The notes beneath the pieces are model-generated. The model was given only the letters and a program-made list of their open reading frames with translations. It was not told the origin of the DNA and did not search any database. From positions 150,014 through 214,013 of IMG/VR virus record IMGVR_UViG_3300028558_000016: DNA of 64,000 nucleotides; one strand, 5' to 3'. Below, piece after piece: positions 618 to 56,485 of the stretch. A program made the translations under genes and the position numbers. Source of the stretch: a virus. Position 1 is the first letter of the stretch. The number at the start of each line of letters is the position of its first letter.

Positions 618-883
618 ACCACATAAAACTATTTGAGGAATTCACTCTAAATGAGGTGAAGCTTAAGAAGCCAAAAGAAGCTTGGTTCAAAGAAACCAGC
701 GATTATTGGAAGACCGTGAAGGATGCAAAGGTGATTGTCACTGACGAATATTTTTCAAACGGAGAAGGCCATTACAAGGGATATTGGAAGGACGATCCAA
801 CAAAAAAGTTTGACCTTCCAGATGTATTCTTCATGGATGCAGAACTTCAAGCATGGTTAGATAAAAATTCAAAAAAGAAATAA
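614..883 (+). CDS. Small leader-tagged putative internal head protein
   Basis: 89 residues starting MNHIKLFEEFTLNEV. The leader offers two (L/I)xE-type processing sites, LFE at residues 6-8 and LNE at 12-14; cutting after residue 14 would leave a 75-residue, Lys-rich product. The rest (WFKETSDYWKTVKDAKVIV and onward) is not recognised. The start overlaps the stop of the gene before it, which suggests translational coupling. Packaging in the head is inferred from the leader only. Confidence 0.75.
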   Translation: MNHIKLFEEFTLNEVKLKKPKEAWFKETSDYWKTVKDAKVIVTDEYFSNGEGHYKGYWKDDPTKKFDLPDVFFMDAELQAWLDKNSKKK

Positions 884-884
884 C

Positions 885-1160
885 ATGGACCACATTATCA
901 AAAATTTCTTCGATTTCCTAAACGAAGCAGAACACAAAGCTCCGTTGGATTATACGACAATGAAGATCGGAGACACTCTCGTCAATCCAGATGGAACACC
1001 TTGGACAGAACAAGATAAATCAAAGATAGTCGTTCTCAACAAGGGAATAGCCTTAATTGAAGAAAATTTCGTTGACATAATAATTAAGACCGTTCTTGGT
1101 AAAGAAGAAAGATTCACAATCTCAAAAACGAACTTAAAAGAAATAGCAAAGAATCTGTAA
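885..1160 (+). CDS. Small leader-tagged protein, variant leader
   Basis: 91 residues beginning MDHIIKNFFDFLNEAEH. The KLFE core has diverged to KNFF, but the FLNE-A end is intact, with the putative cut between Glu14 and Ala15. The mature part would be a roughly 77-residue, lysine-rich domain (PLDYTTMKIGDTLVNPDG and onward) whose spaced beta strands suggest a small barrel. I do not recognise the family. It sits one base after the previous stop and one base before the next start. Confidence 0.7.
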   Translation: MDHIIKNFFDFLNEAEHKAPLDYTTMKIGDTLVNPDGTPWTEQDKSKIVVLNKGIALIEENFVDIIIKTVLGKEERFTISKTNLKEIAKNL

Positions 1161-2051
1161 ATGAAATTTGTAAAATTGTTTGAAAATTTTCTTAATGAAG
1201 CTGAGATGTCATTTGATGATCTTCATTCCAAATTTAAAAATGCTGGAATGGAAGTAACAAAACCAATAGGCTCTCCAGAAAGAGGAAGCGGCAGAATGTT
1301 TGTTGCAATGCCTCCTGTTAATGGCATGCAATATGTTGCTGACGTTTATGACTTCAACAACGTAAAACAATTTATAGACAAATACAAAAGAATACAAAGG
1401 CACAATGACATAATAGAAAAAGTCTATAAATTCATTGAGTCTAAATACGGAAAAGAAATATGGATCATGTCAGGCGGTGGAGCTCAGCTCCAAGCATTTT
1501 ATGGAAACAAGGACGGTTATTTAGCAACCCTTTATCTTGACATGGAGGATCCAAAGGATAACGACGACTTATTAGCAGCAGGAAGAGGAGATGGAAGTAC
1601 ATTCACTTTAACAGTTAACGGAAGCAAGAACGATAAAAATTTCAAAGATTGCCACATACCAAACGTTGAGGTTTTATATTCAAGAGATTTATATGGTAGA
1701 AGCGACGATGACATGGAAGGATTAGAGGAATATTATGATGCTGACAACGTATTGAAATTGTTAAAGAAGAAATATCCTAAAGCAAAATTCAAAAAACGAA
1801 AATATTACGATAAAGCCGAATGTGTGTTTCTATCGGAAGAACACGACGGAGGTTTGTTAAATTCATGGAACAGAGATTCTAATAGCTATAATGATGGATT
1901 AGAAATAGAATTTGCTAAATTTTTAAAAGAACATGGATTAAAATGGTATTGGCATTCAGAAGAAGGACGAACTCATTGGGATGGAATAGAGATAATTCCT
2001 ACAGATTATAAAGGATACACAGAATATTATAAAAATAAATCCAAGGCATAA
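1161..2051 (+). CDS. Leader-tagged protein of unknown function, 296 aa
   Basis: It begins MKFVKLFENFLNEAEM, a near-consensus leader with LNE at 11-13 followed by Ala. It is one of the largest tagged proteins here, with about 283 residues after the putative cut. The body has acidic stretches around residues 130-145 and 180-195 and a C-terminal half rich in Tyr, Trp and Lys (for example HGLKWYWHSEEGRTHWDGIE). No catalytic motif is recognisable. Its size suggests a folded effector rather than a filler protein, which is inference. The stop overlaps the next start (TAATG). Confidence 0.72.
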   Translation: MKFVKLFENFLNEAEMSFDDLHSKFKNAGMEVTKPIGSPERGSGRMFVAMPPVNGMQYVADVYDFNNVKQFIDKYKRIQRHNDIIEKVYKFIESKYGKEIWIMSGGGAQLQAFYGNKDGYLATLYLDMEDPKDNDDLLAAGRGDGSTFTLTVNGSKNDKNFKDCHIPNVEVLYSRDLYGRSDDDMEGLEEYYDADNVLKLLKKKYPKAKFKKRKYYDKAECVFLSEEHDGGLLNSWNRDSNSYNDGLEIEFAKFLKEHGLKWYWHSEEGRTHWDGIEIIPTDYKGYTEYYKNKSKA

Positions 2052-2308
2052 TGAAACACGTAAAATTATTTGAAGAATTCGATAACGAGGAACTGCTCGT
2101 TAAAGATCTCGAGAACCTTGGATGGGAATTAGCAAGCTTAGCTCCTAACACTGATCCACGTTTCACTAAGGGCGAACTCCAATTGGTGACCAATGAGCCT
2201 GACATGAAATATGAGGTTCAGGACATCAAAGGAAAACACACCGACAAGGACGTTGATGCTGAAACGAAATCAGTCCTACACAAACATAAATTAGAGAGAT
2301 TCAAATAA
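2051..2308 (+). CDS. Small acidic leader-tagged protein
   Basis: 85 residues starting MKHVKLFEEFDNEELL. LFE at 6-8 or DNE at 11-13 could be the processing site. The rest is short and strongly charged, with a segment reading LENLGWELASLAPNTDPRF and a C-terminus rich in Lys, Asp and His. It is unrelated to its neighbours outside the leader. Both ends form TAATG stop/start overlaps, so it is embedded in a continuous translational chain. Confidence 0.72.
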   Translation: MKHVKLFEEFDNEELLVKDLENLGWELASLAPNTDPRFTKGELQLVTNEPDMKYEVQDIKGKHTDKDVDAETKSVLHKHKLERFK

Positions 2309-2571
2309 TGAAACACTTAAAGATTTTTGAAAACTTTAATGGACCTGTTTACAGCGGCGGAAACGTAACTAAGATGCCAGTGATCGGAACCATAACAACT
2401 CTTCCTATGGAGTTCGGAGATTTTAAAATAGCTGCTGGCACGGAAGAAGTAGTTGAGATCATAGATGCTCCTAACGGGAAAAAATGTTATGTATGCAACA
2501 GATGGAACAAGCCAGGAATTCCTCAGTTAGTTCACGAGGACATGGTAGAAAAATATGAGCCAAAGAAATGA
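2308..2571 (+). CDS. Small leader-tagged protein with a CxxC pair
   Basis: 87 residues starting MKHLKIFENFNGPVY; IFE at 6-8 is the only good (L/I)xE site. The body looks like a compact beta domain (TKMPVIGTITTLPMEFGDF) and has one CYVC pair (residues 68-71) that could bind metal or form a disulfide. Family unknown. It overlaps the following gene by four bases (ATGA). Confidence 0.7.
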   Translation: MKHLKIFENFNGPVYSGGNVTKMPVIGTITTLPMEFGDFKIAAGTEEVVEIIDAPNGKKCYVCNRWNKPGIPQLVHEDMVEKYEPKK

Positions 2572-2933
2572 GAATAAAATTATTTGAGCAGTTTATAAAT
2601 GAGGGAAGCCAAATAGAAAAGGTCCAGGATCTTTTTGAAACTGATTTCTTAGAACAGCAATTCGTAAAAGATTCGTTTGGAGAAAACCCAGACTACGATA
2701 TTGATAACGACACTACTCCATCTCCGGAAGGAGGGCTTGATAAAATAGTTTGGATTGAAATAAAAAATCCAACAGATGAAGCGAAGCAAGCCATCGATAA
2801 AGATTACAAAACTTTCGCAAAGCCGTTTGAAGAATGGGCAGCCAAACATGATTTATACAATCCGGAAATTACTACGTCTGACGACGAAGATACAGCTTCC
2901 AGCATGAGTTTCAAAATAACAATATTGAAATGA
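2568..2933 (+). CDS. Leader-tagged acidic protein, 121 aa
   Basis: It begins MRIKLFEQFINEGSQ, a leader one residue shorter than the MKHIKLFEEF form, with INE at 10-12 followed by Gly. The remaining 109 residues are very acidic (DYDIDNDTTPSPEGG; TTSDDEDTASS). Acidic internal proteins could balance packaged DNA or act as DNA mimics, but nothing specific supports either. ATGA overlaps exist at both ends. Confidence 0.72.
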   Translation: MRIKLFEQFINEGSQIEKVQDLFETDFLEQQFVKDSFGENPDYDIDNDTTPSPEGGLDKIVWIEIKNPTDEAKQAIDKDYKTFAKPFEEWAAKHDLYNPEITTSDDEDTASSMSFKITILK

Positions 2934-3292
2934 AACTAAAACTATTTGAGCAGTTCGTAAATGAGGAAAACGTGGATTTCTTTGACATAGATCCTAAAAA
3001 TCCTCCATCAACTGATGACAGCGTGAACTATGTTGCAAAACATGCAATAGGAGAACTCGTCAACTTCACGTTCAATGGCGTTAAGATTCCTGCAATTGTC
3101 AGAGTGATCTACCACACAAACGGAAAGGTGAGATATGCAATAAGATTGATAGGAACTGACGAGAATGGAAAAGAATATTACAGCACTATACACAACGTTG
3201 ACTCCATATTCGTTGAGGACAACCTCGACCAAGACGGAAAGAGAACGATATATGACGCAGACTCGGTTGAAGATTTTGACAACTATTCATAA
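2930..3292 (+). CDS. Leader-tagged protein, 120 aa
   Basis: It starts MKLKLFEQFVNEENV, almost the same leader as the gene before it, with VNE at 10-12, although the two bodies are unrelated. The body contains a likely beta-barrel stretch (GELVNFTFNGVKIPAIVRV, then VRYAIRLIGTDENGKEYY) of the SH3/KOW general type; this is only a pattern impression. The C-terminus is acidic. Confidence 0.7.
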   Translation: MKLKLFEQFVNEENVDFFDIDPKNPPSTDDSVNYVAKHAIGELVNFTFNGVKIPAIVRVIYHTNGKVRYAIRLIGTDENGKEYYSTIHNVDSIFVEDNLDQDGKRTIYDADSVEDFDNYS

Positions 3293-3777
3293 TGAAACAC
3301 ATTAGTTTATTTGAAGCATACAAGCACGAAGAGATATTCCCATCCGAAATATTTGGAAAGGATACCGGCATGGATTGGATCTATAAGAATTGGAAGCTTC
3401 CATGCAGTCCAGAAGAAGCTGCAAATAAAGTAGACAAGTGGTCTGACGATCTTGATGTAAAATCGAAAGCAGAAAAAGCTGGAGGAGAATTGATAAAGTT
3501 CTTTCAGAAATTGGTGCACGATAATCCAGATTTGAAGGATCTTGGAGAACCCAAATCATGGTTGAACATAATTGATTTCTGTTATGGAGCAATAAGTAAG
3601 TTCAATGTTGATGACATTAAGTTCTATGCAAACCTTGATTGGAACGACAAGTTAAAATACAACATGAGCAACAGAGCATTGCAGGACAAGATCGAATCAA
3701 AAACTAAAAGCTCCATAGGATGGGTGATGAGCCCAACTACTATCGAGAGAGTCAAAAAAGAACTAAAAATGAAATAA
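3292..3777 (+). CDS. Leader-tagged helical protein, 161 aa
   Basis: It begins MKHISLFEAYKHEEIF; LFE at 6-8 is the probable processing motif. The remainder is mostly helical, with a central Lys-rich amphipathic region (residues 45-75), one Cys in the segment LNIIDFCYGAISKF, and a basic C-terminus. No family recognised. The stop codon shares its last A with the next ATG. Confidence 0.7.
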   Translation: MKHISLFEAYKHEEIFPSEIFGKDTGMDWIYKNWKLPCSPEEAANKVDKWSDDLDVKSKAEKAGGELIKFFQKLVHDNPDLKDLGEPKSWLNIIDFCYGAISKFNVDDIKFYANLDWNDKLKYNMSNRALQDKIESKTKSSIGWVMSPTTIERVKKELKMK

Positions 3778-4544
3778 TGAAATACATAAAGCTATTCGAA
3801 AACTGGATGAACGAAGCGTTTTACCTTGAAGGTTTCAAACAAAACATGAAATCTAAAGTAGAAGGAAACATCGACCAATACATAGACTTTGATGAGCCGG
3901 CAAACCTTTATTATGTGAAGATTCCGTATGATAAAATAAAGGGAGATGCTGCTGAAGTCATTTCGCCTTATGTTGACGGAAAATATCCTAAGTGTAAATC
4001 AGCAAGACTCGATGCAGACAAGCAAGAAGTTTCTATGGTTTTCACAAACGAGTCAAAGAATAACGATGACATTAAAGTTAATGATGTGGTTCGTTTAAAA
4101 ACTGATCAATCTTACGAAGGTAAAAAAGGAGTTGTTGAATCGATTGATGGTGATACTGCAATGGTAAATTGGGGTGACCGTCTTGGAGATTGGGAGTCTA
4201 AAAACAAAAAAGTCACACCTCATAAATTAAATACTTTGATCAGCAATGGTCAACGTGTAACTGAAGCAGAAGAAAAGATCGACCTCAAAGCAAAGTTCCC
4301 AGAATTAGTCGCTGCTTTAGAAAAAGCAAAGGTTCCATGCAAGGTTAAATTATTGGATGCTCCTCACAGCGAGATTGTTGTGGAATGTGGCTGGGATTAT
4401 CCAGACAGCATATTCGACAAAGTCGACAAGGCAGCAAATTCTGTAGGATTAAATACAAGCAATAACGTTAATGTGTGCGCTGATCAATCCGGCGGAACTG
4501 TTGTAGATTCTAAAAGAATAGCAGGCGGACCAAAAAGATATTAA
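3777..4544 (+). CDS. Leader-tagged protein with a KOW/SH3-like middle domain
   Basis: The real start is the ATG at 3777, not the upstream in-frame ATG at 3720, because it restores the leader MKYIKLFENWMNEAFY (MNE at 11-13, then Ala) and the TAATG junction. At about residues 98-150 a KOW/SH3-like module is visible (VNDVVRLKTDQSYEGKKGVV), a fold common in RNA polymerase and ribosome-binding proteins. The C-terminal 90 residues form a second domain (FPELVAALEKAKVPCKVKLL). A host transcription or translation target is possible but unproven. Confidence 0.72.
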   Translation: MKYIKLFENWMNEAFYLEGFKQNMKSKVEGNIDQYIDFDEPANLYYVKIPYDKIKGDAAEVISPYVDGKYPKCKSARLDADKQEVSMVFTNESKNNDDIKVNDVVRLKTDQSYEGKKGVVESIDGDTAMVNWGDRLGDWESKNKKVTPHKLNTLISNGQRVTEAEEKIDLKAKFPELVAALEKAKVPCKVKLLDAPHSEIVVECGWDYPDSIFDKVDKAANSVGLNTSNNVNVCADQSGGTVVDSKRIAGGPKRY

Positions 4545-4546
4545 AC

Positions 4547-5254
4547 ATGAAATCTCTCCAACAATTCTGGTTTGCTTCTGCACCCATTGATTTGGAACAT
4601 AAGCAATACGTCTTAATGGATTTTCTACAAAGCGTGAAGGATGACTTCACGCTTGACGTTTTGTATCCTTGGCTCTCTGAGGTCCAGAAACAATACGCAG
4701 ACCTCACAAAGTTCAAGTTTGAAAGAGATGAGATGCTTGAAAGATTCAAGAAGATAAAGAGGATAAACCTCGAAAAGATGAAGCTGGAATACGAATACGA
4801 CACATCTTGGATAACAAAAGATTTTGAGGAAGTTCACAACATCATAGAATTCTCAATACCTCATCTGGAAACCTGGATGAAGAAAGGACAACATTTCTAC
4901 GATAATATTTCCAACCAGATGAAGTGGGAGACAATAGGATTGATACCAGAATATAAAGACGAGGGTTATTTCATTCTGCACATCGATTCAAGAGACATAT
5001 TCATCTACAGGTTTAAAATAGAGAACATCATTCTTGAGTCAGATAACTACTTTGGAATAACAACAGAACTCATAGATTTTTTCAATTCAAGGTTTAAAAC
5101 CTATGAGGACCTTAAACGAGATTTGATAAAAAAGCATAAGGATCTTCCAGTTCCATACACCGTTTCCGTTCAGACTAAGTTCTATCCTATGAAGGAAACA
5201 CTCATGCCGATAGTGAAGAGAAACGGCCTGGTATGGGTCAAAAACGGATACTAA
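4547..5254 (+). CDS. Hypothetical protein, 235 aa, no leader
   Basis: It starts MKSLQQFWFASAPIDLEHK, which is not the shared leader. The protein is soluble, rich in aromatic and charged residues, with a long Lys/Glu-rich amphipathic helix at about residues 55-85. I do not recognise it. It follows the preceding leader gene by two bases and ends in front of a late-promoter-like motif, so it appears to close the first transcription unit. Confidence 0.7.
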   Translation: MKSLQQFWFASAPIDLEHKQYVLMDFLQSVKDDFTLDVLYPWLSEVQKQYADLTKFKFERDEMLERFKKIKRINLEKMKLEYEYDTSWITKDFEEVHNIIEFSIPHLETWMKKGQHFYDNISNQMKWETIGLIPEYKDEGYFILHIDSRDIFIYRFKIENIILESDNYFGITTELIDFFNSRFKTYEDLKRDLIKKHKDLPVPYTVSVQTKFYPMKETLMPIVKRNGLVWVKNGY

Positions 5255-5260
5255 TATATA
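5253..5260 (+). promoter_or_regulatory. AATATATA late-promoter-like motif
   Basis: The octamer AATATATA lies 20 bases before the ATG of the secreted protein at 5281. The same octamer with the same spacing precedes the genes at 6081 and 51599, and it resembles the T4 late promoter TATAAATA. Assignment is by recurrence only. Confidence 0.5.
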
Positions 5261-5280
5261 CAAAAAGAACTGATCAATCC

Positions 5281-5700
5281 ATGAAGAAAATCTTAGCATT
5301 TTTAATAGCATTCCTGTTGTCTTTTGCGACAATTTCAGAAGCACAGACTCAAACTTATTACAAGAAGTTTCAAACCGATACTTACATTCCTTGGAAAATA
5401 ACCAACGAGGGTTGTTACGGTTGCGCCTCTTTTTATTGGCTGGTGAACAGGACTTTTCTTCCATCAAACAACACATACAAGTTCGAGATATGGTTCTACA
5501 GCAACAGCTACTATCCTAACGGAGCTTGGGCTTCCACCTATGTTCAAGGATTATACTTCAACGTCGACGGATACAATCTTTATGCTGAACCATCGTGGGT
5601 TTTATTTAAAGACAAATACACATCGAGTCTTTCCACATTCTTCACACCAAACCCAACGCCCGTCGTCAAGATGACTTGGGCATCAATGAAAGTTTACTAA
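5281..5700 (+). CDS. Small secreted protein
   Basis: The start is placed at 5281, where MKKILAFLIAFLLSFATISEAQ forms a signal peptide; an upstream in-frame ATG at 5233 would bury it. Cleavage before Gln22 gives about 118 residues rich in Tyr, Phe, Ser and Asn, with a CYGC pair soon after the mature N-terminus. That composition suits a small periplasmic or extracellular beta-sheet protein. The family is not recognised. It is the first gene after a late-promoter-like motif. Confidence 0.72.
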   Translation: MKKILAFLIAFLLSFATISEAQTQTYYKKFQTDTYIPWKITNEGCYGCASFYWLVNRTFLPSNNTYKFEIWFYSNSYYPNGAWASTYVQGLYFNVDGYNLYAEPSWVLFKDKYTSSLSTFFTPNPTPVVKMTWASMKVY

Positions 5701-5701
5701 T

Positions 5702-6052
5702 ATGAACATAGATTTTTCAAAACTTAAATTCCAGACAAACTGGGCCAGCGCAACAACGATTGTCACTCTATTGATTGGAGTCATAACATTGTACATGACA
5801 AACAGCGGATTGAAGAACCAAATAGATGGTCTTCAAAAGAGCAATGATGCTTTAACCAAATCGGTTGGAACTCTTGGCGAATCTGTTTCAGCATTGAAAG
5901 GTTCACAGGAAGTTACATCGAAAGCCATAGAGATATTCATGCAGAATCCTCCAGGAGAACTGAAGTACAGGATAGAGAGAATGGAACAAAGGTTTGGCAT
6001 GTCAGCCGCTGACACAACTTCCAAACCTTTCAACAATAACCATCCACATTAA
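5702..6052 (+). CDS. Single-TM coiled-coil protein
   Basis: 116 residues. A hydrophobic segment (residues 17-34, TTIVTLLIGVITLYMT) is followed by a heptad-rich stretch (NQIDGLQKSNDALTKSVGTL) and a basic helix. One transmembrane segment plus a coiled coil fits an inner-membrane spanin-like protein or a membrane-bound adaptor; no partner gene overlaps it, so the role stays open. It starts one base after the previous stop. Confidence 0.6.
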   Translation: MNIDFSKLKFQTNWASATTIVTLLIGVITLYMTNSGLKNQIDGLQKSNDALTKSVGTLGESVSALKGSQEVTSKAIEIFMQNPPGELKYRIERMEQRFGMSAADTTSKPFNNNHPH

Positions 6053-6060
6053 AATATATA
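6053..6060 (+). promoter_or_regulatory. AATATATA late-promoter-like motif
   Basis: AATATATA ends 20 bases before the ATG at 6081, the same spacing as at 5253-5260. It overlaps the end of the coiled-coil gene before it. Confidence 0.5.
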
Positions 6061-6080
6061 CAGAAACCAACAAATATACC

Positions 6081-6467
6081 ATGGACAAAAGAGACATTGA
6101 GAAGTTAAGATTGAAGACGCAGATGAACGAGACATTACACCTCGTTGAGACATCTCCATACCAATCAATAAGACAGAATGCTGAATTGAAGCTCAAGTTT
6201 CTTCAGGAACAATACAAGGGAGCTTTTGGAGAATATTCAAAGGAACACGAGATTGCAGAAAAGGGAATGTATGAAGGAAAACCTTTTTGGGAAGTAACCG
6301 AAGCAAGAAGAAAAGACGGTGAGGTCTTCAGAACCGGAGATAAGTACATGGATGGAAATAATAAAACTTTTACCATCAAGATCATGACCATCTCTCCTAA
6401 TGGGAAGTTGATGGCAACAGCTGAAGAAGGCGGACAAATAGATCTTGGCAACGTAAAGAAAGCATAA
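6081..6467 (+). CDS. Hypothetical soluble protein, 128 aa
   Basis: The ATG at 6081 (MDKRDIEKLRLKTQMNETL) is chosen over the in-frame ATG at 5994 because it lies 20 bases downstream of a promoter-like motif and avoids overlap with the gene before it. The N-terminal half is a charged helix; the C-terminal half (RTGDKYMDGNNKTFTIKIM and onward) looks like a small beta domain. Family unknown. The leader genes at 6469-8471 follow it. Confidence 0.65.
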   Translation: MDKRDIEKLRLKTQMNETLHLVETSPYQSIRQNAELKLKFLQEQYKGAFGEYSKEHEIAEKGMYEGKPFWEVTEARRKDGEVFRTGDKYMDGNNKTFTIKIMTISPNGKLMATAEEGGQIDLGNVKKA

Positions 6468-6468
6468 C

Positions 6469-6654
6469 ATGAAAAACCTAAAACTTTTTGAAGCATTCTT
6501 TGAAGAACTTTCTGAAAAGAAGGAACAACTCAGATCCAAGAAAGGAAAGTGGGAGATCATTGGACCTGAAGAGAAAGTTCCTGACGGTTGGAGAGTTATG
6601 AACGTCACAGGACTTCCTGATGGATATAAAGCAATTTGTAAAACAACTGACTAA
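6469..6654 (+). CDS. Very small leader-tagged protein
   Basis: 61 residues starting MKNLKLFEAFFEELSE, with LFE at 6-8 or FEE at 11-13 as possible cut sites. Under 50 residues remain, mostly basic, including GPEEKVPDGWRVMNVTGLP. The mature product would be near the size of the smallest T4 internal head proteins. It overlaps the next start (TAATG). Confidence 0.68.
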   Translation: MKNLKLFEAFFEELSEKKEQLRSKKGKWEIIGPEEKVPDGWRVMNVTGLPDGYKAICKTTD

Positions 6655-7046
6655 TGAAATACGTAAAATTATTTGAAGAATTCACAGACGATGGTCAGGA
6701 CCCACACGGTCATAATTCCAATCAGGAAGCTTCAAAGGCATACATATATTACATCAACAATGATGACGAAAAACATTTCGACGCTGACATTAGAGACCCT
6801 GATGGCAAGATTATTTTTGAATTGACTGCTTCAGACCTTTCAAACGATGGACACATGAAAGGAAAGGATGACGTTCAAGGATTAAGAGAATTGCTTTTAA
6901 GCAAGAACAAGATTAAACAGGGAGACACGATAGTTCCAGCCAATTCAACTGCAAAAGTTGTAGGAGGACAGAACATGGATTTCGTTCCTGAGTTAAACAC
7001 GAACCTGAACCAGACTTTGATAAACCAAAAATCAGAACCGGAATAA
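6654..7046 (+). CDS. Leader-tagged acidic protein, 130 aa
   Basis: It begins MKYVKLFEEFTDDGQD; the NE end of the leader is replaced by DD, leaving LFE at 6-8 as the candidate cut. The body is rich in Asp, Asn and His (GQDPHGHNSNQEASKAYIY) and ends in a low-complexity Asn/Gln segment. Function unknown. The start and stop both overlap neighbouring genes. Confidence 0.68.
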   Translation: MKYVKLFEEFTDDGQDPHGHNSNQEASKAYIYYINNDDEKHFDADIRDPDGKIIFELTASDLSNDGHMKGKDDVQGLRELLLSKNKIKQGDTIVPANSTAKVVGGQNMDFVPELNTNLNQTLINQKSEPE

Positions 7047-7303
7047 TGAGAATAAAAGATTTTAAAAACTTCGGCCTTACAGAAAAGGAAGAAGACTTCG
7101 TGAACGGAACAAATACAGAAGAGTTCAACATTCTCGTTTCTAAATTAGTCGATCATGAATTGGAAGAATTTGAAGAGGAAGACGCAGAAGAAAAGGGAAT
7201 CACAAAGGATGATTGCCAGAAGATTAAAGACTATCTCGTTCAAAACAAATTATATGTCGCTCCTGAAAAAGAGGAAGGCGAAGAAAAAACAGACGGTGAA
7301 TAA
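7046..7303 (+). CDS. Very acidic short protein with a degenerate leader
   Basis: 85 residues starting MRIKDFKNFGLTEKEED. KLFE has become KDFK, while LTE at 11-13 keeps a usable (L/I)xE site. The rest is extremely acidic, with Glu runs (EEFEEEDAEEKGI and KEEGEEK), a composition seen in DNA-mimic proteins and also in disordered spacers; neither can be chosen from sequence. A second overlapping frame (7155-7367) is a shadow of this gene. Confidence 0.62.
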   Translation: MRIKDFKNFGLTEKEEDFVNGTNTEEFNILVSKLVDHELEEFEEEDAEEKGITKDDCQKIKDYLVQNKLYVAPEKEEGEEKTDGE

Positions 7304-7363
7304 TGAACTTGTTGCAGAAGCTAAGATGGGGACTCCTCATAACACAATTAATGGAAATAAGAA

Positions 7364-7942
7364 ATGAAATACGTAAAACTGTTTGAGGGATTCCTCAATG
7401 AAGGTAAATCCAAATTACTTGGAAAAGATCTGCCTACTCCTTTTTCATCTGAGGTGACGATGACCCAGGCAAACATTGATTGCGTAATTTCTTTTCTTGA
7501 ACAAAAAGGAATAGAAGCAACAGACGAAAATATAGCGCTTCTCGTTGCTAATATAATGCCGACTCATAAAGACTCAGTTGCTTTTGACAACGGTAAAGGA
7601 TTTGATATTGATGACAGCGACTTTGACAGTTGGGAAGACGTCAGGTCTAATTTTCCAGGATATGAAGATGTAGATGAATCTTTAAACGAAGCAGACAGAA
7701 GCATCAAGGACATTGCAGCTGACGTTAAGGCAGATTGGAAGAACGTTTCACCTTATGCCAAACCTTATCTCGATGCGATGTTTGATTTGAACACCATTGA
7801 TGACAAGTACATCGAGGACTCTGCTTCAAGCGTTCTATCTTATTTTCTTGCAAACGCAGCAACCTGGAAGGGTGAGAAAGCAAAAGCGATCAAGAAGGAA
7901 TTGAACGATATGTTGAAAGTATATTACAAGAAGAACAAATGA
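7364..7942 (+). CDS. Leader-tagged protein with a second NE-A site
   Basis: 192 residues beginning MKYVKLFEGFLNEGKS (LNE 11-13, then Gly). A second SLNEA motif at about residue 106 divides an acidic N-terminal part from a helical C-terminal domain (VKADWKNVSPYAKPYLDAM), so a prohead protease could release two products. This is an inference from the repeated motif. It follows a 60-base spacer that has no other convincing gene. Confidence 0.7.
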   Translation: MKYVKLFEGFLNEGKSKLLGKDLPTPFSSEVTMTQANIDCVISFLEQKGIEATDENIALLVANIMPTHKDSVAFDNGKGFDIDDSDFDSWEDVRSNFPGYEDVDESLNEADRSIKDIAADVKADWKNVSPYAKPYLDAMFDLNTIDDKYIEDSASSVLSYFLANAATWKGEKAKAIKKELNDMLKVYYKKNK

Positions 7943-8157
7943 AGAACATAAAATTTTTCGAGAACTATCAAGAGAATGAGCTTCCAAAGAACAAGGCGAT
8001 GGATGAAATCAAGGAAGCATTCCTTAGATTTATTTTAAACGGCGCAAAGATAAAATTGGAAGATGTTCAAGAGGTTCACGCATTCAACAAGTACACAGAG
8101 ATCAAGACCAAGTTTCAGACTTACAGGATCGACTACGACATAAAGATTATAGGATAA
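7939..8157 (+). CDS. Small leader-tagged protein, 72 aa
   Basis: It starts MKNIKFFENYQENELP; the leader core reads KFFE and the second Glu lies at residue 12. The rest is a short alpha/beta unit with the segment AFLRFILNGAKIKLEDVQ. Not recognised. ATGA overlap upstream and TAATG overlap downstream. Confidence 0.66.
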   Translation: MKNIKFFENYQENELPKNKAMDEIKEAFLRFILNGAKIKLEDVQEVHAFNKYTEIKTKFQTYRIDYDIKIIG

Positions 8158-8471
8158 TGAAACACGTAAAACTATACGAGAACTTCCTTAACGAAAAAGA
8201 ATTAAATCTAACCAAAGGAAAAAAATTCAAGGTTCTTAAGGACACTGAATTAACCTGGTTTGAAAACACCGGTGGATCTTCGTTTTCTCCAAAAAGCGTT
8301 GAAGTGAAAACAGGAGAAACGTTGACATATCTTGGAAATGGATTCGGCGCATTTGCTGGATCTGACGACGTGGCAGTTCCTCAATTCCAAAAAGAATCTG
8401 GAGAAAAAGGTGAACTAAAAGATACAGGAACTTGGGGACAACTTCCAACCGGAGTTCTAAAAAATATTTAA
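8157..8471 (+). CDS. Leader-tagged beta-rich protein, 104 aa
   Basis: It begins MKHVKLYENFLNEKEL, with Phe replaced by Tyr in the core and LNE at 11-13. The body has alternating hydrophobic and charged residues and Gly turns (GKKFKVLKDTELTWFENTG; TLTYLGNGFGAFAG), consistent with a small beta barrel. No family identified. It is the last leader gene before the baseplate wedge gene. Confidence 0.68.
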   Translation: MKHVKLYENFLNEKELNLTKGKKFKVLKDTELTWFENTGGSSFSPKSVEVKTGETLTYLGNGFGAFAGSDDVAVPQFQKESGEKGELKDTGTWGQLPTGVLKNI

Positions 8472-8472
8472 G

Positions 8473-8835
8473 ATGGCAAGAGAAATCTATATGAGGGATC
8501 CGACCGATCCGTATTTTAAGTCCGACATCATGGAAATTAATGATGAGGTTGAAATGCTCATCACTCAGATCAAGATGATTTTGTTCACAAGACCTGGAGA
8601 AGTATTAGGAGCTCCTGATTTCGGAGTTGCATTGGAAGACCAACTGTTCACGTTCAACATAAACGAATATGCTTTGAAGTCGATGTTGTTTGACCAGGTG
8701 ATAAAGTTTGTTCCTTTGTCAGAGAAGTATCACGTCAAGTTTGACATCAACTTCTCAAAGGGAACCGTTAGGGATATTTGTCTTATAGACGTTGTTATAA
8801 ACGGAAATCCGTTGTTTGGAATATTAGTTAAATAA
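8473..8835 (+). CDS. Baseplate wedge subunit, gp25-like (GPW/gp25 family)
   Basis: 120 residues, close to T4 gp25 (132). The family hallmark is visible at residues 39-51 (TRPGEVLGAPDFG), followed by a hydrophobic core (LEDQLFTFNINEYALKSML) and a C-terminal beta strand pair. gp25 is part of the conserved sheath-initiating baseplate core in contractile tails. It has no leader, as expected for a tail protein, and sits between leader genes. The gp6-like and gp7-like wedge genes lie 1.6 and 5.8 kb downstream. Confidence 0.88.
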   Translation: MAREIYMRDPTDPYFKSDIMEINDEVEMLITQIKMILFTRPGEVLGAPDFGVALEDQLFTFNINEYALKSMLFDQVIKFVPLSEKYHVKFDINFSKGTVRDICLIDVVINGNPLFGILVK

Positions 8836-8837
8836 TT

Positions 8838-9062
8838 ATGAAAAACCTAAAACATTTTGACGAGCTAAACGAAGGGCATTCAAGAATGATTCTTCCTGAC
8901 CTTGCTAACTTATCAAACAACTCTCAATTGACTAATGAATTGGCAAACATCCTTGCTGAAAAGTTGGATGAAGCTGAATTCAGAAAATTACAGGATTGGT
9001 TGAGACTCGCAAAGTCTCAAATGAATACTAAGATACAACAAGCCTCAAGAAAATTCCACTAA
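8838..9062 (+). CDS. Small protein with degenerate leader
   Basis: 74 residues starting MKNLKHFDELNEGHS; KLFE is changed to KHFD, but LNE at 10-12 followed by Gly is preserved. The rest is one or two amphipathic helices (ELANILAEKLDEAEFRKLQ) and a basic tail. It could be a helical internal protein. It is two bases from the gp25-like gene. Confidence 0.64.
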   Translation: MKNLKHFDELNEGHSRMILPDLANLSNNSQLTNELANILAEKLDEAEFRKLQDWLRLAKSQMNTKIQQASRKFH

Positions 9063-13445: not shown

Positions 13446-13970
13446 ATGAAACACATCAAACTATTTGAAGAACAAACAACCCACAGCAAGATTCTTTTCT
13501 TACATGGTCTTGATTCAAGACCTTATGAGGACAGACTTGCAATATTAAAGGAAACAGGCGCAGAAGTATTTGCTCCACACATCAACTACAGGCAAGAAGA
13601 CGAAACTTCAATTGCAGAAGACATCATCGAAAAAGAAGGAATAACTCATCTAATAGGACACTCATTGGGTGGAATACTTTCTTTCTACCTTTCAAACAAA
13701 CACAAGCTTCCTGCATTGATGTTCAACCCTGCATTTGGATCCATCAACAGAAAATATTTTGAGGAGATAAGAGAGCTTCAACAATATCCTCCATTTGAAG
13801 AACAATACGCTGTCGTAGGTTTAAAGGACACAGTCATTCCTCCGGATGTTCAATTGGCAGGATTAAAACACGCACACGTGTTTGAAGAACCAGAAATGCC
13901 TCACACTATAGAACCAAAGCTATTTAAGAAGTACGTTGAATTATTTTCGGAAAAAACCAACATCAAGTGA
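13446..13970 (+). CDS. Leader-tagged alpha/beta hydrolase (YqiA-like esterase)
   Basis: 174 residues starting MKHIKLFEEQTTHS; only LFE at 6-8 remains as a cut site. The hydrolase follows directly: HGLDS (20-24) as oxyanion region, GHSLGG (71-76) with nucleophile Ser73, likely acid Asp128 in GLKDTVIPPD, and His153 in the segment EMPHTIEP. The short form and the HG(L/F)xS-x-P start resemble the UPF0227/YqiA esterase group. The substrate is unknown; if ejected, it could act on a host ester or thioester. Its own host-type promoter box suggests separate control. Confidence 0.75.
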   Translation: MKHIKLFEEQTTHSKILFLHGLDSRPYEDRLAILKETGAEVFAPHINYRQEDETSIAEDIIEKEGITHLIGHSLGGILSFYLSNKHKLPALMFNPAFGSINRKYFEEIRELQQYPPFEEQYAVVGLKDTVIPPDVQLAGLKHAHVFEEPEMPHTIEPKLFKKYVELFSEKTNIK

Positions 13971-14668
13971 AACACATAAAAGATTATAACAAATTATTCG
14001 AGAACGAAAAGCCAATCATATCTTACGATTTTGACGGGTGTCTTCACGTTTCTGTTGTTGGACACGATCCAATTAACTTCACAGATCCTGAATCATGGGT
14101 TCCATTTACAGAGATGCACGAACAAATGAGAGAGGATGCAAAGACTCACACCATCGTCATTTGCACGGCAAGACCTCCTGAAACCGAAGTTTACGTTCAA
14201 GAATTTCTTGACATGTACAAGCTTCCGGTTGAAAAGATTTACGCAACAAACAATTTTCCAAAGACTCCTCTTCTCGTTGAGATTGGAGCCATAAAACATT
14301 ACGACGACAACACTGGGCTCATTGAACCTTTACATAAAGCAGGAATAGAATTCGTTCTCGTCAACCCGTTCAACAGAACTCAACAGGTAATGGAAGGTGA
14401 AATACCTTTAAAAAATTACTTGATAACATTCATAAACGATAAGTTTTACATATCAGACAACACCATCAAAGCGTTCTTAGACAGGCTGGTTAAGCTTGAC
14501 CCACACATGACGCATGACCCAAGAAGCGATGGAAAAGGAAAAAATTCAAGAGGAATAGTGATTAGAAGCGCAGCATTGAGTCAGCCTGACATCAAGGATT
14601 TATTTCCAGAATTCACCAAGAAGTATGATTGGTTGAAGATGGAGGTCGTAGCCACCAAATATATGTAG
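13967..14668 (+). CDS. Leader-tagged HAD-superfamily phosphatase
   Basis: 233 residues starting with GTG (13967) overlapping the hydrolase stop. The leader MKHIKDYNKLFENEKP has LFE at 10-12. HAD motif I is DFDGC at 21-25 (nucleophile Asp21, acid/base Asp23), motif II is the Thr in the segment IVICTARPPE, and an acidic motif IV appears as HYDDN at about residue 105. HAD enzymes of this form remove phosphate from nucleotides or polynucleotide ends; the C-terminal 90 residues look like an extra domain. It is paired with the tagged hydrolase before it. Confidence 0.72.
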   Translation: MKHIKDYNKLFENEKPIISYDFDGCLHVSVVGHDPINFTDPESWVPFTEMHEQMREDAKTHTIVICTARPPETEVYVQEFLDMYKLPVEKIYATNNFPKTPLLVEIGAIKHYDDNTGLIEPLHKAGIEFVLVNPFNRTQQVMEGEIPLKNYLITFINDKFYISDNTIKAFLDRLVKLDPHMTHDPRSDGKGKNSRGIVIRSAALSQPDIKDLFPEFTKKYDWLKMEVVATKYM

Positions 14669-51598: not shown

Positions 51599-51820
51599 AT
51601 GAAGAACATCAAATTATTCGAGAATTTTAGAACCGATGATGCTAAGAAAGCATTTGATGCGGTAACAGAACTAAGCGCCCAAGAACTGGAAGAATTTCTG
51701 TTTGCACTTTCTAAATACTTTGATGACAGCAAAGAAGAATTAACCAACATGAACGCGGAAGACATAAGCAAATCTTTGCATGACGCTGCTGAAATGGTAC
51801 AAAATAGATCAGGAAATTAA
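51599..51820 (+). CDS. Small leader-tagged helical protein
   Basis: 73 residues starting MKNIKLFENFRTDD, LFE at 6-8. The rest is two helices (AKKAFDAVTELSAQELEEFL). It resembles the tagged protein at 53383 in size and helical make-up. First gene of the second leader-gene cluster. Confidence 0.68.
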   Translation: MKNIKLFENFRTDDAKKAFDAVTELSAQELEEFLFALSKYFDDSKEELTNMNAEDISKSLHDAAEMVQNRSGN

Positions 51821-51821
51821 T

Positions 51822-52661
51822 ATGAGAATAAAATTATTCGAGAACTTTAGCAAAGGCCCAGAGCTTTTGAATTCATTCCAGGATGCTGAAAGCAAGTTAT
51901 CCGATAAAGATGGAATTGTATTGCCTGGAGTAACAGGAGACATGACTCATATTGAAGATGCCATTAAAGACATCCCACACAATGAGGCTTACGTTCTAAT
52001 CACAGACCAAAGCAGTCACGTTGCTTCTTCATGGAAGAGCGATGTGTTTCTTGTTGGTGGAACTAAGGAAGGTGAAATGTCCATAAAACAATATTTCGAT
52101 GAAGAATGGACAGACCCAGCAGGTGGAACACACCGTGGAAACGAAGAAGATCCAGCCGCAGCTTATGAAGCCGAAGTCAAAGCCAAAAAAGTTCCATTGA
52201 AAGATTTATTAAAGAGTAAATCAATAGAGCCAGGTAATTTCCTTTCAATGAAAGGTTGGCCAAAAGCTCTTGTTGACGGAATAGATTATGCTAAGAAAAC
52301 AATATCTCTTCAATTCAAAGAAGATGGTCCTATAAATGATTATAAGTTCGATGATGAGTCTCTTGAAAAAGGAAATATCATGACAAAATTATGGGAGCAC
52401 GTAAACGAAGGAACCATGATCTCAAAGAGAAATATGGATCTTGACGCATTCAAACACCAAGGTTCTTTCTTCAATAGAGAACCTCATTCAAACGATTCTC
52501 CTGTTCATGGTAAATCTATAAAAGAACTCAACGAAGAAAGATCTGGCGATCTTTTAATGGAACTAACTAACGTCATAACAAGATATAAAACTAAGATGAA
52601 GCCAGAAGCTATCTTTGATGTTTTACATCTTTTAGCTGAAAGACAAAAGAACGAATTTTAA
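51822..52661 (+). CDS. Leader-tagged protein, 280 aa
   Basis: The start at 51822 gives MRIKLFENFSKGPE; the in-frame ATG at 51780 overlaps the gene before it. LFE at 5-7 is the cut candidate. After an alpha/beta N-terminal domain (NEAYVLITDQSSHVASSWKS) there is an Ala/Glu/Lys linker and a C-terminal helical part (LLMELTNVITRYKTKMKPEA). It is one of the larger tagged products. Function unknown. Confidence 0.68.
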   Translation: MRIKLFENFSKGPELLNSFQDAESKLSDKDGIVLPGVTGDMTHIEDAIKDIPHNEAYVLITDQSSHVASSWKSDVFLVGGTKEGEMSIKQYFDEEWTDPAGGTHRGNEEDPAAAYEAEVKAKKVPLKDLLKSKSIEPGNFLSMKGWPKALVDGIDYAKKTISLQFKEDGPINDYKFDDESLEKGNIMTKLWEHVNEGTMISKRNMDLDAFKHQGSFFNREPHSNDSPVHGKSIKELNEERSGDLLMELTNVITRYKTKMKPEAIFDVLHLLAERQKNEF

Positions 52662-52662
52662 T

Positions 52663-52914
52663 ATGGAAAAACTAAAACTGTTTGAAGCATTCGTCAATGA
52701 AGACGATATAAGAGCAAGAGGAGTTATTGACAGCAAAGAAGCTTTAGTTGCATTCATGACATCTCTTGTTAGAGGTGAAGTTGCACAGCTCATAGGTGGA
52801 AAGATGACACAAACAAACATCAAAATAATCTTGGCTGACATTGGCTTCGATCAAATCGAAGAAGCTTTAGATGAGATTAAGAAAGAAGTTGAAAGATTAA
52901 AAAAAGAAATGTAA
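52663..52914 (+). CDS. Small leader-tagged helical protein, 83 aa
   Basis: It begins MEKLKLFEAFVNEDD, VNE at 11-13. The helical body (SKEALVAFMTSLVRGEVAQL) shares a TSLVRGEVxxxIGGKMT-type pattern with VSSI...LRAKLTWGN of the protein at 53383, so the two may be diverged paralogues. Confidence 0.68.
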   Translation: MEKLKLFEAFVNEDDIRARGVIDSKEALVAFMTSLVRGEVAQLIGGKMTQTNIKIILADIGFDQIEEALDEIKKEVERLKKEM

Positions 52915-52916
52915 TC

Positions 52917-53285
52917 ATGACATTCGAGGAATATTACAACAAGAAGGTTTCTGAATCGCAAGACGATTTCAAACTATTCACGGACTTCAAGTCTGAAGAG
53001 AACAAAGGACTTTATTATCTGACTGAGCAAGAAAATGCTCAGATAGACGAATATGTAAAGATGTTTGAGAGCGAACATGGAAATGACCTGTCTAAACTTG
53101 ACGAGGCTTTCTTTGGAAAAATCATGGGTGGTGTTGCTGGTTTCTTAGTTGGACCGACCATCGGCAAGATCATCGCAAACGCACTTGGTATCGAAAAAGG
53201 AATTTTGTTTGACATGTTCACAAGCAGATTGGTTTCTACCGCTCTTGGATCTGCCATAGGAAAATCCATCGGCCAAAAGAAATAA
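52917..53285 (+). CDS. Glycine-zipper membrane-active protein, possible tagged protein
   Basis: 122 residues. The start MTFEEYYNKKVSES is a distant version of the leader (VSE at 11-13), and a second site LDE-A occurs near residue 63. The C-terminal half is a glycine-zipper pair (GKIMGGVAGFLVGPTIGKII; STALGSAIGKSIG), as in pore-forming and membrane-inserting proteins. It may help DNA pass the host membrane if packaged, or act on the membrane from inside. Confidence 0.58.
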   Translation: MTFEEYYNKKVSESQDDFKLFTDFKSEENKGLYYLTEQENAQIDEYVKMFESEHGNDLSKLDEAFFGKIMGGVAGFLVGPTIGKIIANALGIEKGILFDMFTSRLVSTALGSAIGKSIGQKK

Positions 53286-53386
53286 TGAAGCCGTTTCATG
53301 ATATGTGGATGGCATGGATAACATGCTACATTGCAATGCTGCAAACCCCATTCATGATATTAAAAGAATCTACAAAGAAGAAATGA
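53285..53386 (+). CDS. 33-aa micro-protein
   Basis: MKPFHDMWMAWITCYIAMLQ begins a small Met/Trp-rich, mostly hydrophobic peptide with a basic end. Its start shares a base with the stop before it and its stop overlaps the next leader gene (ATGA). A small membrane peptide is likely; the function is unknown. Confidence 0.5.
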   Translation: MKPFHDMWMAWITCYIAMLQTPFMILKESTKKK

Positions 53387-53574
53387 GAATCAATAAATAC
53401 GACGATTTTGACATGAACGAGGGATATGCAGAAACTCTTAAGCTGGTAGTTTCTTCCATTAAAAACGCTTCAGACGAAGAGATCGATAAAATCAGTCAAA
53501 TACTCAGAGCCAAATTAACGTGGGGCAACATCAAGGACATTGCCGACGTCTTACATGTAGAAATACAAAAATAA
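53383..53574 (+). CDS. Small protein with degenerate leader, 63 aa
   Basis: The start at 53383 gives MRINKYDDFDMNEGYA (MNE at 11-13, then Gly); the in-frame ATG at 53305 is out of step with the ATGA overlap. The body is helical (VSSIKNASDEEIDKISQILR) and resembles the tagged protein at 52663. Confidence 0.62.
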   Translation: MRINKYDDFDMNEGYAETLKLVVSSIKNASDEEIDKISQILRAKLTWGNIKDIADVLHVEIQK

Positions 53575-53580
53575 TCCTTC

Positions 53581-54126
53581 ATGAAACGAATAAAGGATTT
53601 TAATTCATTCAATGAATCTCTTGAAGTATGGGCACCTAAAGTAGCATACACTAATACTTTGTACATCATGCCTAAGAAAGATCCAGATTTGGATAAGGCA
53701 GACATCGAAGGAAAAGAAATAACTCCAAAGGTTCCTCAATTCGATTTAGTAAAAACCCTAACCATAATATTAGCAGATGGAAATTTGTCTGCTAAAGCAG
53801 CTCAAATATTTCCTAATACCGATCTCACCAAAGCTATAAAGAATCCAGACATGCTTGGTCCTGAAGAGAAAGACAAATTGATTCAGATATACAATAACAT
53901 AATATTAAAAGATTATGTGCTTAGACAAGAATATGACGTGCTTCCAGAATCCATAGACGAAAACATGTGCCCTGAATGTGGCGAGGAATATACGTCGCAA
54001 TGCAAATGCATGACAACTCACAAAAAGACTTTAGAAGATTTAAAAAGAGGACATGGTAAAACTTGTCCCAACGGACATACGTGGACGTACGACACTCCAG
54101 ATGGAAAAGTAATAGTAGTGAAGTAA
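53581..54126 (+). CDS. Leader-tagged protein with zinc-binding C-terminus
   Basis: 181 residues starting MKRIKDFNSFNESLEV, a degenerate leader. The C-terminal 45 residues form a rubredoxin/zinc-ribbon-like knot: CPECGEEY at about 138-145, CKC near 150, and CPNGHTW near 168. The middle is a helical domain (LTIILADGNLSAKAAQIF). A zinc knot on an ejected protein could bind DNA or protein; no family assigned. Confidence 0.66.
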   Translation: MKRIKDFNSFNESLEVWAPKVAYTNTLYIMPKKDPDLDKADIEGKEITPKVPQFDLVKTLTIILADGNLSAKAAQIFPNTDLTKAIKNPDMLGPEEKDKLIQIYNNIILKDYVLRQEYDVLPESIDENMCPECGEEYTSQCKCMTTHKKTLEDLKRGHGKTCPNGHTWTYDTPDGKVIVVK

Positions 54127-54225
54127 ATGAGTTGTTGTTTAAATTCACCAAAGAAGAAAATAGAGAAACCTAAGGTAAAAGAAAAGCCAAAGGTAAAAGT
54201 AAGCAAAGAGAAGAAGACGAAATGA
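54127..54225 (+). CDS. 32-aa lysine-rich micro-protein
   Basis: MSCCLNSPKKKIEKPKVKEK begins a peptide that is about half Lys, with PKVK repeats and a Cys pair at residues 3-4. The stop overlaps the ART-like gene's start (ATGA). It could bind DNA or RNA. Low complexity makes the call tentative. Confidence 0.42.
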   Translation: MSCCLNSPKKKIEKPKVKEKPKVKVSKEKKTK

Positions 54226-55052
54226 AACACATAAGATCATACAAGCAACATCTCGAGGAAGGACTCATAAAAACTTATGACGTCACAGAATTTGTCAAGC
54301 ATTTCAACAAGATGATTGCGGCAAAAGATTACAAGAAGCTTTTATCGAATGCAAAAGTTGATCCTGATGCGCACGTGTGGTTGATCGTAAAAATTAAACC
54401 AGACACAATTAATTTTGCAAAAGAATTAGTCAGTCTAATGAACGTTCTTGGATACTATGTGTCTGATGTAAATTTTCGTGGATATAACATTGATGACGAG
54501 GCAAACCATCCACCGAAGAGCAACGACGATTTTTTAAAAATAGTAAAACAGGCTGAAGAAGAAAATGCGAGTGCTATTCAATTGCTCATTGAACCTAAAT
54601 TTGAAGAAGAGGCCGAAGGAAAATTCACAATTCTATATCACATCACAGAAGAAAAACATTTGAAGAAAATTCAAGAGATGGGATTGGTTCCTAAGTCTAA
54701 ATCTAAAGTAACATATCATCCAGAAAGAATTTATCTTGCGACCAAAGAAGCAATGGCATTCCTTTTTACTAAATACAAAGATTACGTAAAAGATCCAGTC
54801 GTTCTCAGAGTCAACGTTAAAGGCTTGAAACTGTATCCAGACATTAATGCTGGAAAAGGAACGTATTTTACCACAACAAATATCTCTCCGGATAAAATCA
54901 AACCGTTGAAACAGGATGCGTATGACATAATGAATAAATATTTGAAAAATAAACCAGCTTCAAATCAAGGTTGGGATATTGAAAAATTATTGTCAAATTT
55001 ATTAGGACAAGCTCAAAAAGGAATAATATCAACGCAAAATGCGACACATTAA
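54222..55052 (+). CDS. Leader-tagged ADP-ribosyltransferase-like protein
   Basis: 276 residues. The leader MKHIRSYKQHLEEGLI keeps LEE at 11-13 followed by Gly. After a helical N-terminal domain, residues about 137-229 resemble an ART fold: LYHITEEKHLKKIQEMGL (138-155, His140), a strand IYLATKEAM (170-178), and VVLRVNVKGLKLYPDI with GTYFTTTNISPDKI. T4 packages the ADP-ribosyltransferase Alt with a capsid-targeting leader, so a tagged ART is expected biology. The catalytic Glu is not certain. It is followed by the leader gene at 55039 (overlap). Confidence 0.6.
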   Translation: MKHIRSYKQHLEEGLIKTYDVTEFVKHFNKMIAAKDYKKLLSNAKVDPDAHVWLIVKIKPDTINFAKELVSLMNVLGYYVSDVNFRGYNIDDEANHPPKSNDDFLKIVKQAEEENASAIQLLIEPKFEEEAEGKFTILYHITEEKHLKKIQEMGLVPKSKSKVTYHPERIYLATKEAMAFLFTKYKDYVKDPVVLRVNVKGLKLYPDINAGKGTYFTTTNISPDKIKPLKQDAYDIMNKYLKNKPASNQGWDIEKLLSNLLGQAQKGIISTQNATH

Positions 55053-55485
55053 ACTATATGAGGAATTTGTGGTTGACGAGGGATTAATGAAATCTCTTGG
55101 CAAGCTCGCAAAGTTTGCTTTAATTCTTCCTAAGGTGATGCAGTATGTTGGATTCGCTTCATCTGCATTAGGAAAACACTTCAACAACGATAAGGCCCAA
55201 GACATTGCAAAGTTTCTCGTTCAAAATGGAAAATCTCTTGACAACAAATACAAACAAACTGTTGCTTCAGCTTTAGCACCGTTCTTAAAAGACCCTTCAA
55301 AGAAAGACCAAGTCGCAAAGGATTACATTTATTATTTAACAGCCAAACACGTTGGCGGAGGTTTCTCTGACAAAAGCATGGCATTACACGATCCGCATAA
55401 ATCAGCTATGAACGTTATAGGAAGCGTTGATCCAAGCAACATATTAAACAATGCCAGAAAAATATTTCCACAATTATTGAAATGA
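55039..55485 (+). CDS. Leader-tagged protein with hydrophobic helix, 148 aa
   Basis: It begins MRHIKLYEEFVVDEGLM (VDE at 12-14, then Gly). The next region (LGKLAKFALILPKVMQYVGF) is a hydrophobic amphipathic helix, and the rest is helical and basic. A membrane-interacting internal protein is possible. Both ends overlap neighbouring genes. Confidence 0.66.
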   Translation: MRHIKLYEEFVVDEGLMKSLGKLAKFALILPKVMQYVGFASSALGKHFNNDKAQDIAKFLVQNGKSLDNKYKQTVASALAPFLKDPSKKDQVAKDYIYYLTAKHVGGGFSDKSMALHDPHKSAMNVIGSVDPSNILNNARKIFPQLLK

Positions 55486-56069
55486 AGCACTTAAAGCTAT
55501 ACGAGGAATTTGTGGATGAGGCAATACTTCTTCCAGGACAACAGAAGATTAAAAGAGCTGATGCAATGGAAATTGCTAAGACTATAATTGAAGGCATGGG
55601 TTTTAAGTATGTGGATCCTGACACTGTAACAACCAATTATGAGTTTGAGAAGAACGTTGGAATCCCAGTTGGTTCAATAAGAAGAAAGAGGCCTGAAGTT
55701 GGAGACATCGACATCATAATAACTTCACCAATAAACACGATGAAGCTTAGACAAGAACCATGGGCCAAAACCGTTTCAGGCGGAGACAAACAAGTTAATT
55801 TTATTTATGAGGATGGAACAATTAAACGAAAAGTGAATTTATTTTCATTCGTTGATCCTGCAACTTTCGGCGGAGCTCTATTACATACTACCGGTTCTCA
55901 TCAATACAATGTAAGATTAAGATTCGTTGCCAACCAAAGAGGATTTGGAAAACTCAGCCAACATGGATTATTTGATGACAATGGAAAATTAATAGCAGGT
56001 CCAACGGAAGCTTCAATACAGAAGGCGATGAAGGTCACGCAACGCGAACCTAAAGAACGAGAGAAATAA
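55482..56069 (+). CDS. Leader-tagged DNA polymerase X-like protein
   Basis: 195 residues, starting MKHLKLYEEFVDEAILL (VDE 11-13, then Ala). GSIRR at 64-68 and GDIDI with Asp75 and Asp77 match the pol beta palm motif. TTGS at 136-139 with Asn143 and Arg147 match the YFTGS...N...R thumb region, and GFGKLSQHGLF follows. The third catalytic Asp of the family is Asn119 here (RKVNLF). The minimal palm-plus-thumb size resembles viral Pol X enzymes. Activity may be altered or lost. Confidence 0.72.
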   Translation: MKHLKLYEEFVDEAILLPGQQKIKRADAMEIAKTIIEGMGFKYVDPDTVTTNYEFEKNVGIPVGSIRRKRPEVGDIDIIITSPINTMKLRQEPWAKTVSGGDKQVNFIYEDGTIKRKVNLFSFVDPATFGGALLHTTGSHQYNVRLRFVANQRGFGKLSQHGLFDDNGKLIAGPTEASIQKAMKVTQREPKEREK

Positions 56070-56071
56070 AC

Positions 56072-56079
56072 GATATATA
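56072..56079 (+). promoter_or_regulatory. GATATATA late-promoter-like motif
   Basis: Four bases before the secure leader start at 56084, directly after the Pol X-like stop. Confidence 0.45.
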
Positions 56080-56083
56080 GTCT

Positions 56084-56485
56084 ATGAAACACATTAAATT
56101 ATTCGAGAATTTCAATGAAGGCAAAGCGAAAGCCAATCCAACCGCTGACGAGAATTTCAAACCAATAGGTCCTGAGATAACTTACAAAAATGAATTCAAT
56201 GAAACTACGTTCATCGGACAAATCTATAAAGAAAAATACCAAAATGACAGAATTGCTCTTGAAATGATCGGCACAAAAGGAAAATACAAAGGAGAAACAA
56301 TTCTCGTTGCAACCATAAATGTTCCATCAGAAAAAATTGCAGATGATGAAGTCATCATTAAAAACTATTCTGAGAACGAAGGAATTCTCGATGTTTTGAT
56401 TGACGCAAAGATAATTTCCAAGCCAATCAGACAAGTTTCCACTGGTCACGTTTCAGCTCCAGTTTGCAAGCTTCTTATCAAATAA
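56084..56485 (+). CDS. Leader-tagged beta-rich protein, 133 aa
   Basis: It begins MKHIKLFENFNEGKAK (FNE at 10-12, then Gly). The rest alternates strands (TFIGQIYKEKYQNDRIALEM; GETILVATINVPSEKIAD) and looks like a compact beta domain. Function unknown. It is the last tagged gene seen and is followed by a hairpin. Confidence 0.68.
   Translation: MKHIKLFENFNEGKAKANPTADENFKPIGPEITYKNEFNETTFIGQIYKEKYQNDRIALEMIGTKGKYKGETILVATINVPSEKIADDEVIIKNYSENEGILDVLIDAKIISKPIRQVSTGHVSAPVCKLLIK

Follow-up and report, generated by a model that had tools for sequence, protein, structure and literature searches.

The gene at positions 55482..56069 (plus strand, ATG start, 195 amino acid residues plus stop) of a 64-kb window, the whole stretch of phage DNA analysed here, raises the question of what a protein might do that combines the fold of a family X DNA polymerase (Pol X), a leader of the capsid-targeting type and an asparagine at the third catalytic position. 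The window comprises bases 150014-214013 of a virus record of 482,156 bases. Based on capsid-protein matches to LR756500.1 (an uncultured huge phage of 462 kb, at 45.6% the best match in the phage collection), the Lak megaphages of Prevotella (~41%) and Sphingomonas phage PAU, the source is identified as a distant T4-like jumbo phage and, with these three as relatives, its host is probably a member of the Bacteroidota. The gene belongs to a run of same-strand genes, and its ATG overlaps the stop codon of the leader-bearing ORF upstream.

The earlier note on this DNA had read the product as Pol X-like and named an HMM search and structure prediction as checks; both bore the reading out. The protein matches Pfam DNA_pol_B_thumb at E = 2.9e-15, above the cut-off (residues 132-194; 55875..56063, +), the Pfam palm at 2e-4 and the NCBIfam PolX model at 3e-12. 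Sequence matches in the PDB are to Thermus thermophilus PolX (5.1e-8), African swine fever virus (ASFV) PolX (~1e-5) and Pol lambda (~1e-4). The AlphaFold model, for which the input was an alignment with 23 cellular PolX, has a mean pLDDT of 85.8 and a pTM of 0.81, with a well folded domain and a disordered leader (residues 1-12, pLDDT < 50). In Foldseek the predicted model hits Pol lambda ternary complexes (E = 3.3e-14, TMq ~0.7). The 8-kDa and helix-hairpin part is absent, which corresponds to the minimal plan of the ASFV enzyme. By sequence and model the product is a family X polymerase homologue; it is classed as a homologue only, and not as a functional family X polymerase, because the third catalytic carboxylate is missing.

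The remaining motifs line up with those of phage and cellular PolX as the earlier note had assigned them. GSIRR (residues 64-68; 55671..55685, +) provides the equivalents of Pol beta Ser180 and Arg183, and GDIDI the catalytic Asp75 and Asp77 (55704..55712, +). G64, S65, R67, R68, D75 and D77 are invariant in alignments A1 and A5, so that a nucleotidyltransferase palm with GS...GDxD is present, and the D75 and D77 columns are Asp in every ungapped row of the cellular PolX alignment. The stretch TTGS...N143...R147 (residues 136-147; 55887..55922, +) contains the nucleotide and minor-groove contacts (Pol beta Asn279 and Arg283), and T137, G138, S139, N143 and R147 are invariant in all of the phage and cellular PolX compared.

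The third catalytic Asp, Asp256 of Pol beta, is replaced by Asn119 (codon AAT; 55836..55838, +), as had been claimed, a state known from a single sequence in one metagenomic record. Among 80 bacterial and archaeal PolX collected with the pattern FTGSK[DE]HN, two of which have a gap at this column, the residue is Asp in 74/78, Gln in 4/78 and Asn in none; it is also Asp in 6/6 of the phage PolX in alignment A1. The four sequences with Gln are all from Poseidoniales/marine Euryarchaeota (L054, L061, L075 and L076), where the motif reads DAQV. Asn119 lies inside a predicted strand (residues 114-122), and the phmmer, L-INS-i and A5 alignments all pair it with the third Asp; a default MAFFT run that included sequences with long inserts (A4) shifted the strand, and the placement is thus slightly alignment-dependent. 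It seems unlikely that another carboxylate fills the third site, because the nearest downstream acidic residue, D125, is six residues away and beyond the strand.

The leader, MKHLKLYEEFVDE, occupies residues 1-13 (55482..55520, +), with a predicted cleavage after Glu13 and before Ala14. It is a genome-wide feature of the 482-kb phage: an N-terminus like MKHIKLFExFLNE heads at least 73 ORFs whose bodies are otherwise unrelated, a minimum count from reading the stretches that hold most of the leader-pattern matches. The DNA pattern ATGARRNNNNTNAARNWNTWYGAN gave 49 matches genome-wide and 1 in the reversed control, while 20 leader cores were counted in the window and none in its reversed sequence or in five triplet-shuffled controls; a chance origin of the leader was rejected on these counts. 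Within the window the leader ORFs lie mainly at 614-9062 and 51599-56485. Leader matches were also obtained in a 642-kb phage (16, with 0 in the control) and in a 373-kb relative (12, with 0). As a simple tag in the sequence, the leader allows dozens of candidate injected proteins to be picked out in jumbo phages of the Lak/PAU lineage. Two other leader proteins gave PHROG matches: the product of 13967-14668 (+) in the window, which has a DxDG HAD-like start, weakly matches a polynucleotide kinase (2.5e-5), and a 402-residue protein elsewhere (L028:10756-11961, +) matches an RNA 2'-phosphotransferase in its C-terminal part (1.5e-4).

The genome also encodes a cognate S77 prohead protease (PF03420, E = 4.4e-8, 30.8 bits against a cut-off of 27), which together with the leader family sustains the earlier description of the leader as packaging-type. 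The protease shares its reading frame with a scaffold-like stretch (G000:C1 68283-70385, minus strand; L024, L025), and this fused part carries about twelve YLAEN... repeats, each of them potentially cleavable. For targeting in T4, the 10 N-terminal residues are enough, and gp21 cuts after L/I-x-E (PMC9026906). The site in the Pol X-like protein is V11-D12-E13, without the Leu or Ile of the strict T4 rule; [LIV]xE is present at residues 9-16 in 44/73 leader proteins, compared with 4-9 in equally sized stretches downstream, and the regular expression that selected the leaders placed no requirement on residues 11-13 of the commonest form. A cut near the start of the capsid protein (...YCHYHSLNE before SSS) is likewise suggested.

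Comparative support for the cut site comes from the leader protein encoded at 54222-55052 (+), which has orthologues in Lak phages and in phages of 642-735 kb. In the orthologues compared (735-kb phage, 642-kb phage and Lak-B5) the leaders differ and all end in [LI]xE immediately before a conserved GLIK or GLIM: ...HLEE precedes GLIKTYD here, and ...HIKE, ...LLNE and ...SLNE precede GLIKTYD, GLIKT and GLIMSYN, respectively. The C-terminal part of this protein (LYHITEEKHLKKIQEMGLVPK...ERIYLAT) resembles, by eye, an ADP-ribosyltransferase/2'-phosphotransferase.

The reading preferred here, with a probability of about 0.5, is that the Pol X-like protein is an internal protein of the T4 type, which would be packaged, cut and injected and would bind gapped or broken DNA, with a crippled or metal-altered catalysis. 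Residues 1-13 would direct it to the core of the prohead, the S77 protease would remove the leader after Glu13, and a mature palm-plus-thumb protein of 182 residues would enter the cell with the genome; its presence in the virion is what we infer from the leader and the protease gene. The residues for binding dNTP, metal B and DNA are kept, but with Asn119 a carboxylate ligand of catalytic metal A is lost. The target could be incoming or host DNA, and the main action would be to bind gaps, nicks or ends and to hold them until ligation, nucleotidyl transfer being at best slow or Mn2+-dependent. Two homologues of ATP-dependent ligases are encoded by the phage, neither open frame having a leader start as read here, so that repair could be completed. 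It is tentatively suggested that the injected protein might be a pseudo-enzyme, its catalytic metal site lost, whose binding to gaps or ends protects the genome on entry or obstructs host enzymes.

How much catalysis Asn119 would permit bears on a different proposal, that of a co-injected and competent gap filler, in which Asn119 would work with Mn2+ or another ligand to fill short gaps before ligation. Asparagine is still able to ligate a metal and activity may therefore remain; the Gln in 4/78 cellular PolX likewise means that loss of the third Asp is by itself no proof of lost function, since an archaeal lineage tolerates it. The catalytic and substrate residues are otherwise intact, the phage encodes ligases, and ASFV offers a known case of a Pol X in the virion, the same role having been proposed for its packaged base-excision-repair enzymes (PMC12172490). 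Set against this are the Asp of 74/78 cellular PolX and of every phage PolX compared, the long branch of the protein (2.95) and the D256A substitution in Pol beta, where D256 binds the catalytic metal and the mutant is polymerase-dead (PMC5228075). A competent gap filler is considered less likely than the preferred reading, and Asn119 is better read as a sign of weak or altered catalysis, because this residue departs from the Asp of nearly all PolX and because of the effect of D256A.

The genomic setting is relevant to another proposal, in which the Pol X scaffold is reused as an injected, host-directed effector that occupies host DNA ends or gaps, or blocks a host nuclease or defence enzyme, in the manner of the T4 anti-restriction protein IPI. 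The gene is part of a cassette of mostly leader-bearing ORFs (51599..56485, +; starts at 51599, 51822, 52663, 53383, 53581, 54222, 55039, 55482 and 56084), flanked by a tail-tube gene (51024) and a RuvC-like gene (56601). The cassette is variable among relatives: the tail-tube and gp32 genes are close together, without it, in 10/11 gp32 relatives, and the 373-kb relative (L009) has another set of leader genes at the locus. One of these (L009:5403-6206, +) encodes a protein that has, besides the leader, a motif (IIDGHHR) that looks ParB-like by eye. This variability, the neighbouring leader-bearing proteins without assigned function and the host-takeover factors Alt and IPI among the T4 internal proteins (PMC9026906) would suit an effector, but the strict conservation of the dNTP-site motifs exceeds the needs of a pure decoy, and this explanation is considered unlikely.

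Across the relatives searched, the Pol X gene is sporadic. Peptide patterns scanned against viral contigs (with P0001 and alignment A2) and against genome contigs gave no close relative of the protein, no PHROGs family was found for it, and no second Pol X was found in the 482-kb genome. Pol X was absent from 9 gp32-related and 50 capsid-related records, many of which are fragments, and from LR756501, LR756502 and Lak-B5 (Lak phages use another genetic code, and stops were read through). The tree leaves the protein unplaced (support 12/86, branch length 2.95), other phage Pol X also being on long branches, and no origin is therefore claimed. Two phage records labelled 'Staphylococcus' and 'Listeria' (L006 and L154; OR845002.1 and OR848679.1) contain full-length PolX of bacterial type with a PHP-like C-terminus and may be host contigs.

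LR756500.1, of the same phage lineage, has two Pol X, at L021:1174-1686 and L002:9914-10852. The former is small (170 residues) and also shows an Asp-to-Asn change, although here it is the second Asp that is replaced (GDLN), and a leader is absent; in the latter a helix-hairpin-like part follows the palm and thumb rather than preceding them. Because of the GDLN motif, small Pol X may have been inactivated more than once in this huge-phage lineage. An error of consensus or assembly at codon 119 (AAT for a true GAT) would make the protein an ordinary active Pol X, and the difference is indeed of one base, in a single metagenomic record for which a second copy is lacking. Such an error is very improbable, given that the reading frame and all other motifs are intact and that the GDLN of a second huge phage indicates that such changes recur.

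Compared with the T4 internal proteins, the leader is the point of likeness: the IPII/IPIII propeptide is MKTYQEFIAE before Ala, the leader here is MKHLKLYEEFVDE before Ala, and an S77 prohead protease is encoded. The leader is, however, three residues longer than that of IPII/IPIII and is present on at least 73 ORFs, and no Pol X is found among IPI, IPII, IPIII and Alt. Pol X of other phages (Vibrio phage 2.275, Escherichia phages IME392/EP_H11, Acinetobacter phage Ab1-TPeters and Cobetia phage Carin-5) share the palm and thumb and, in several, a GGDK-like motif; unlike the protein described here they keep the third Asp and have, instead of a leader, an N-terminal extension that is 8-kDa/HhH-like by inspection. 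The earlier note had regarded a packaged Pol X as unfamiliar from T4-like phages, which holds as far as these were searched; it does not extend to viruses in general. The literature search turned up no description of a phage Pol X targeted to the capsid, whereas phage Pol X and, in ASFV, a virion Pol X are both known.

ASFV Pol X (O174L) is likewise a minimal Pol X, of ~174 residues and without the 8-kDa domain, and matches the phage protein at E ~1e-5. It is listed as a nucleoid virion protein, packaged alongside AP endonuclease and ligase, from which a review suggests that repair could start before replication (PMC12172490). Two differences are that ASFV Pol X is an active gap-filling polymerase (PMC5330486) and that it is not known to carry a T4-type leader. 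ASFV is the nearest working analogy for a packaged Pol X and is not evidence of membership. If the preferred reading is correct, the Asn119 form would allow a test of whether a repair-like protein that enters with the DNA works by binding and not by synthesis, and a minimal Pol X would have been packaged independently by phages and by ASFV, in each case acting on the genome at entry.
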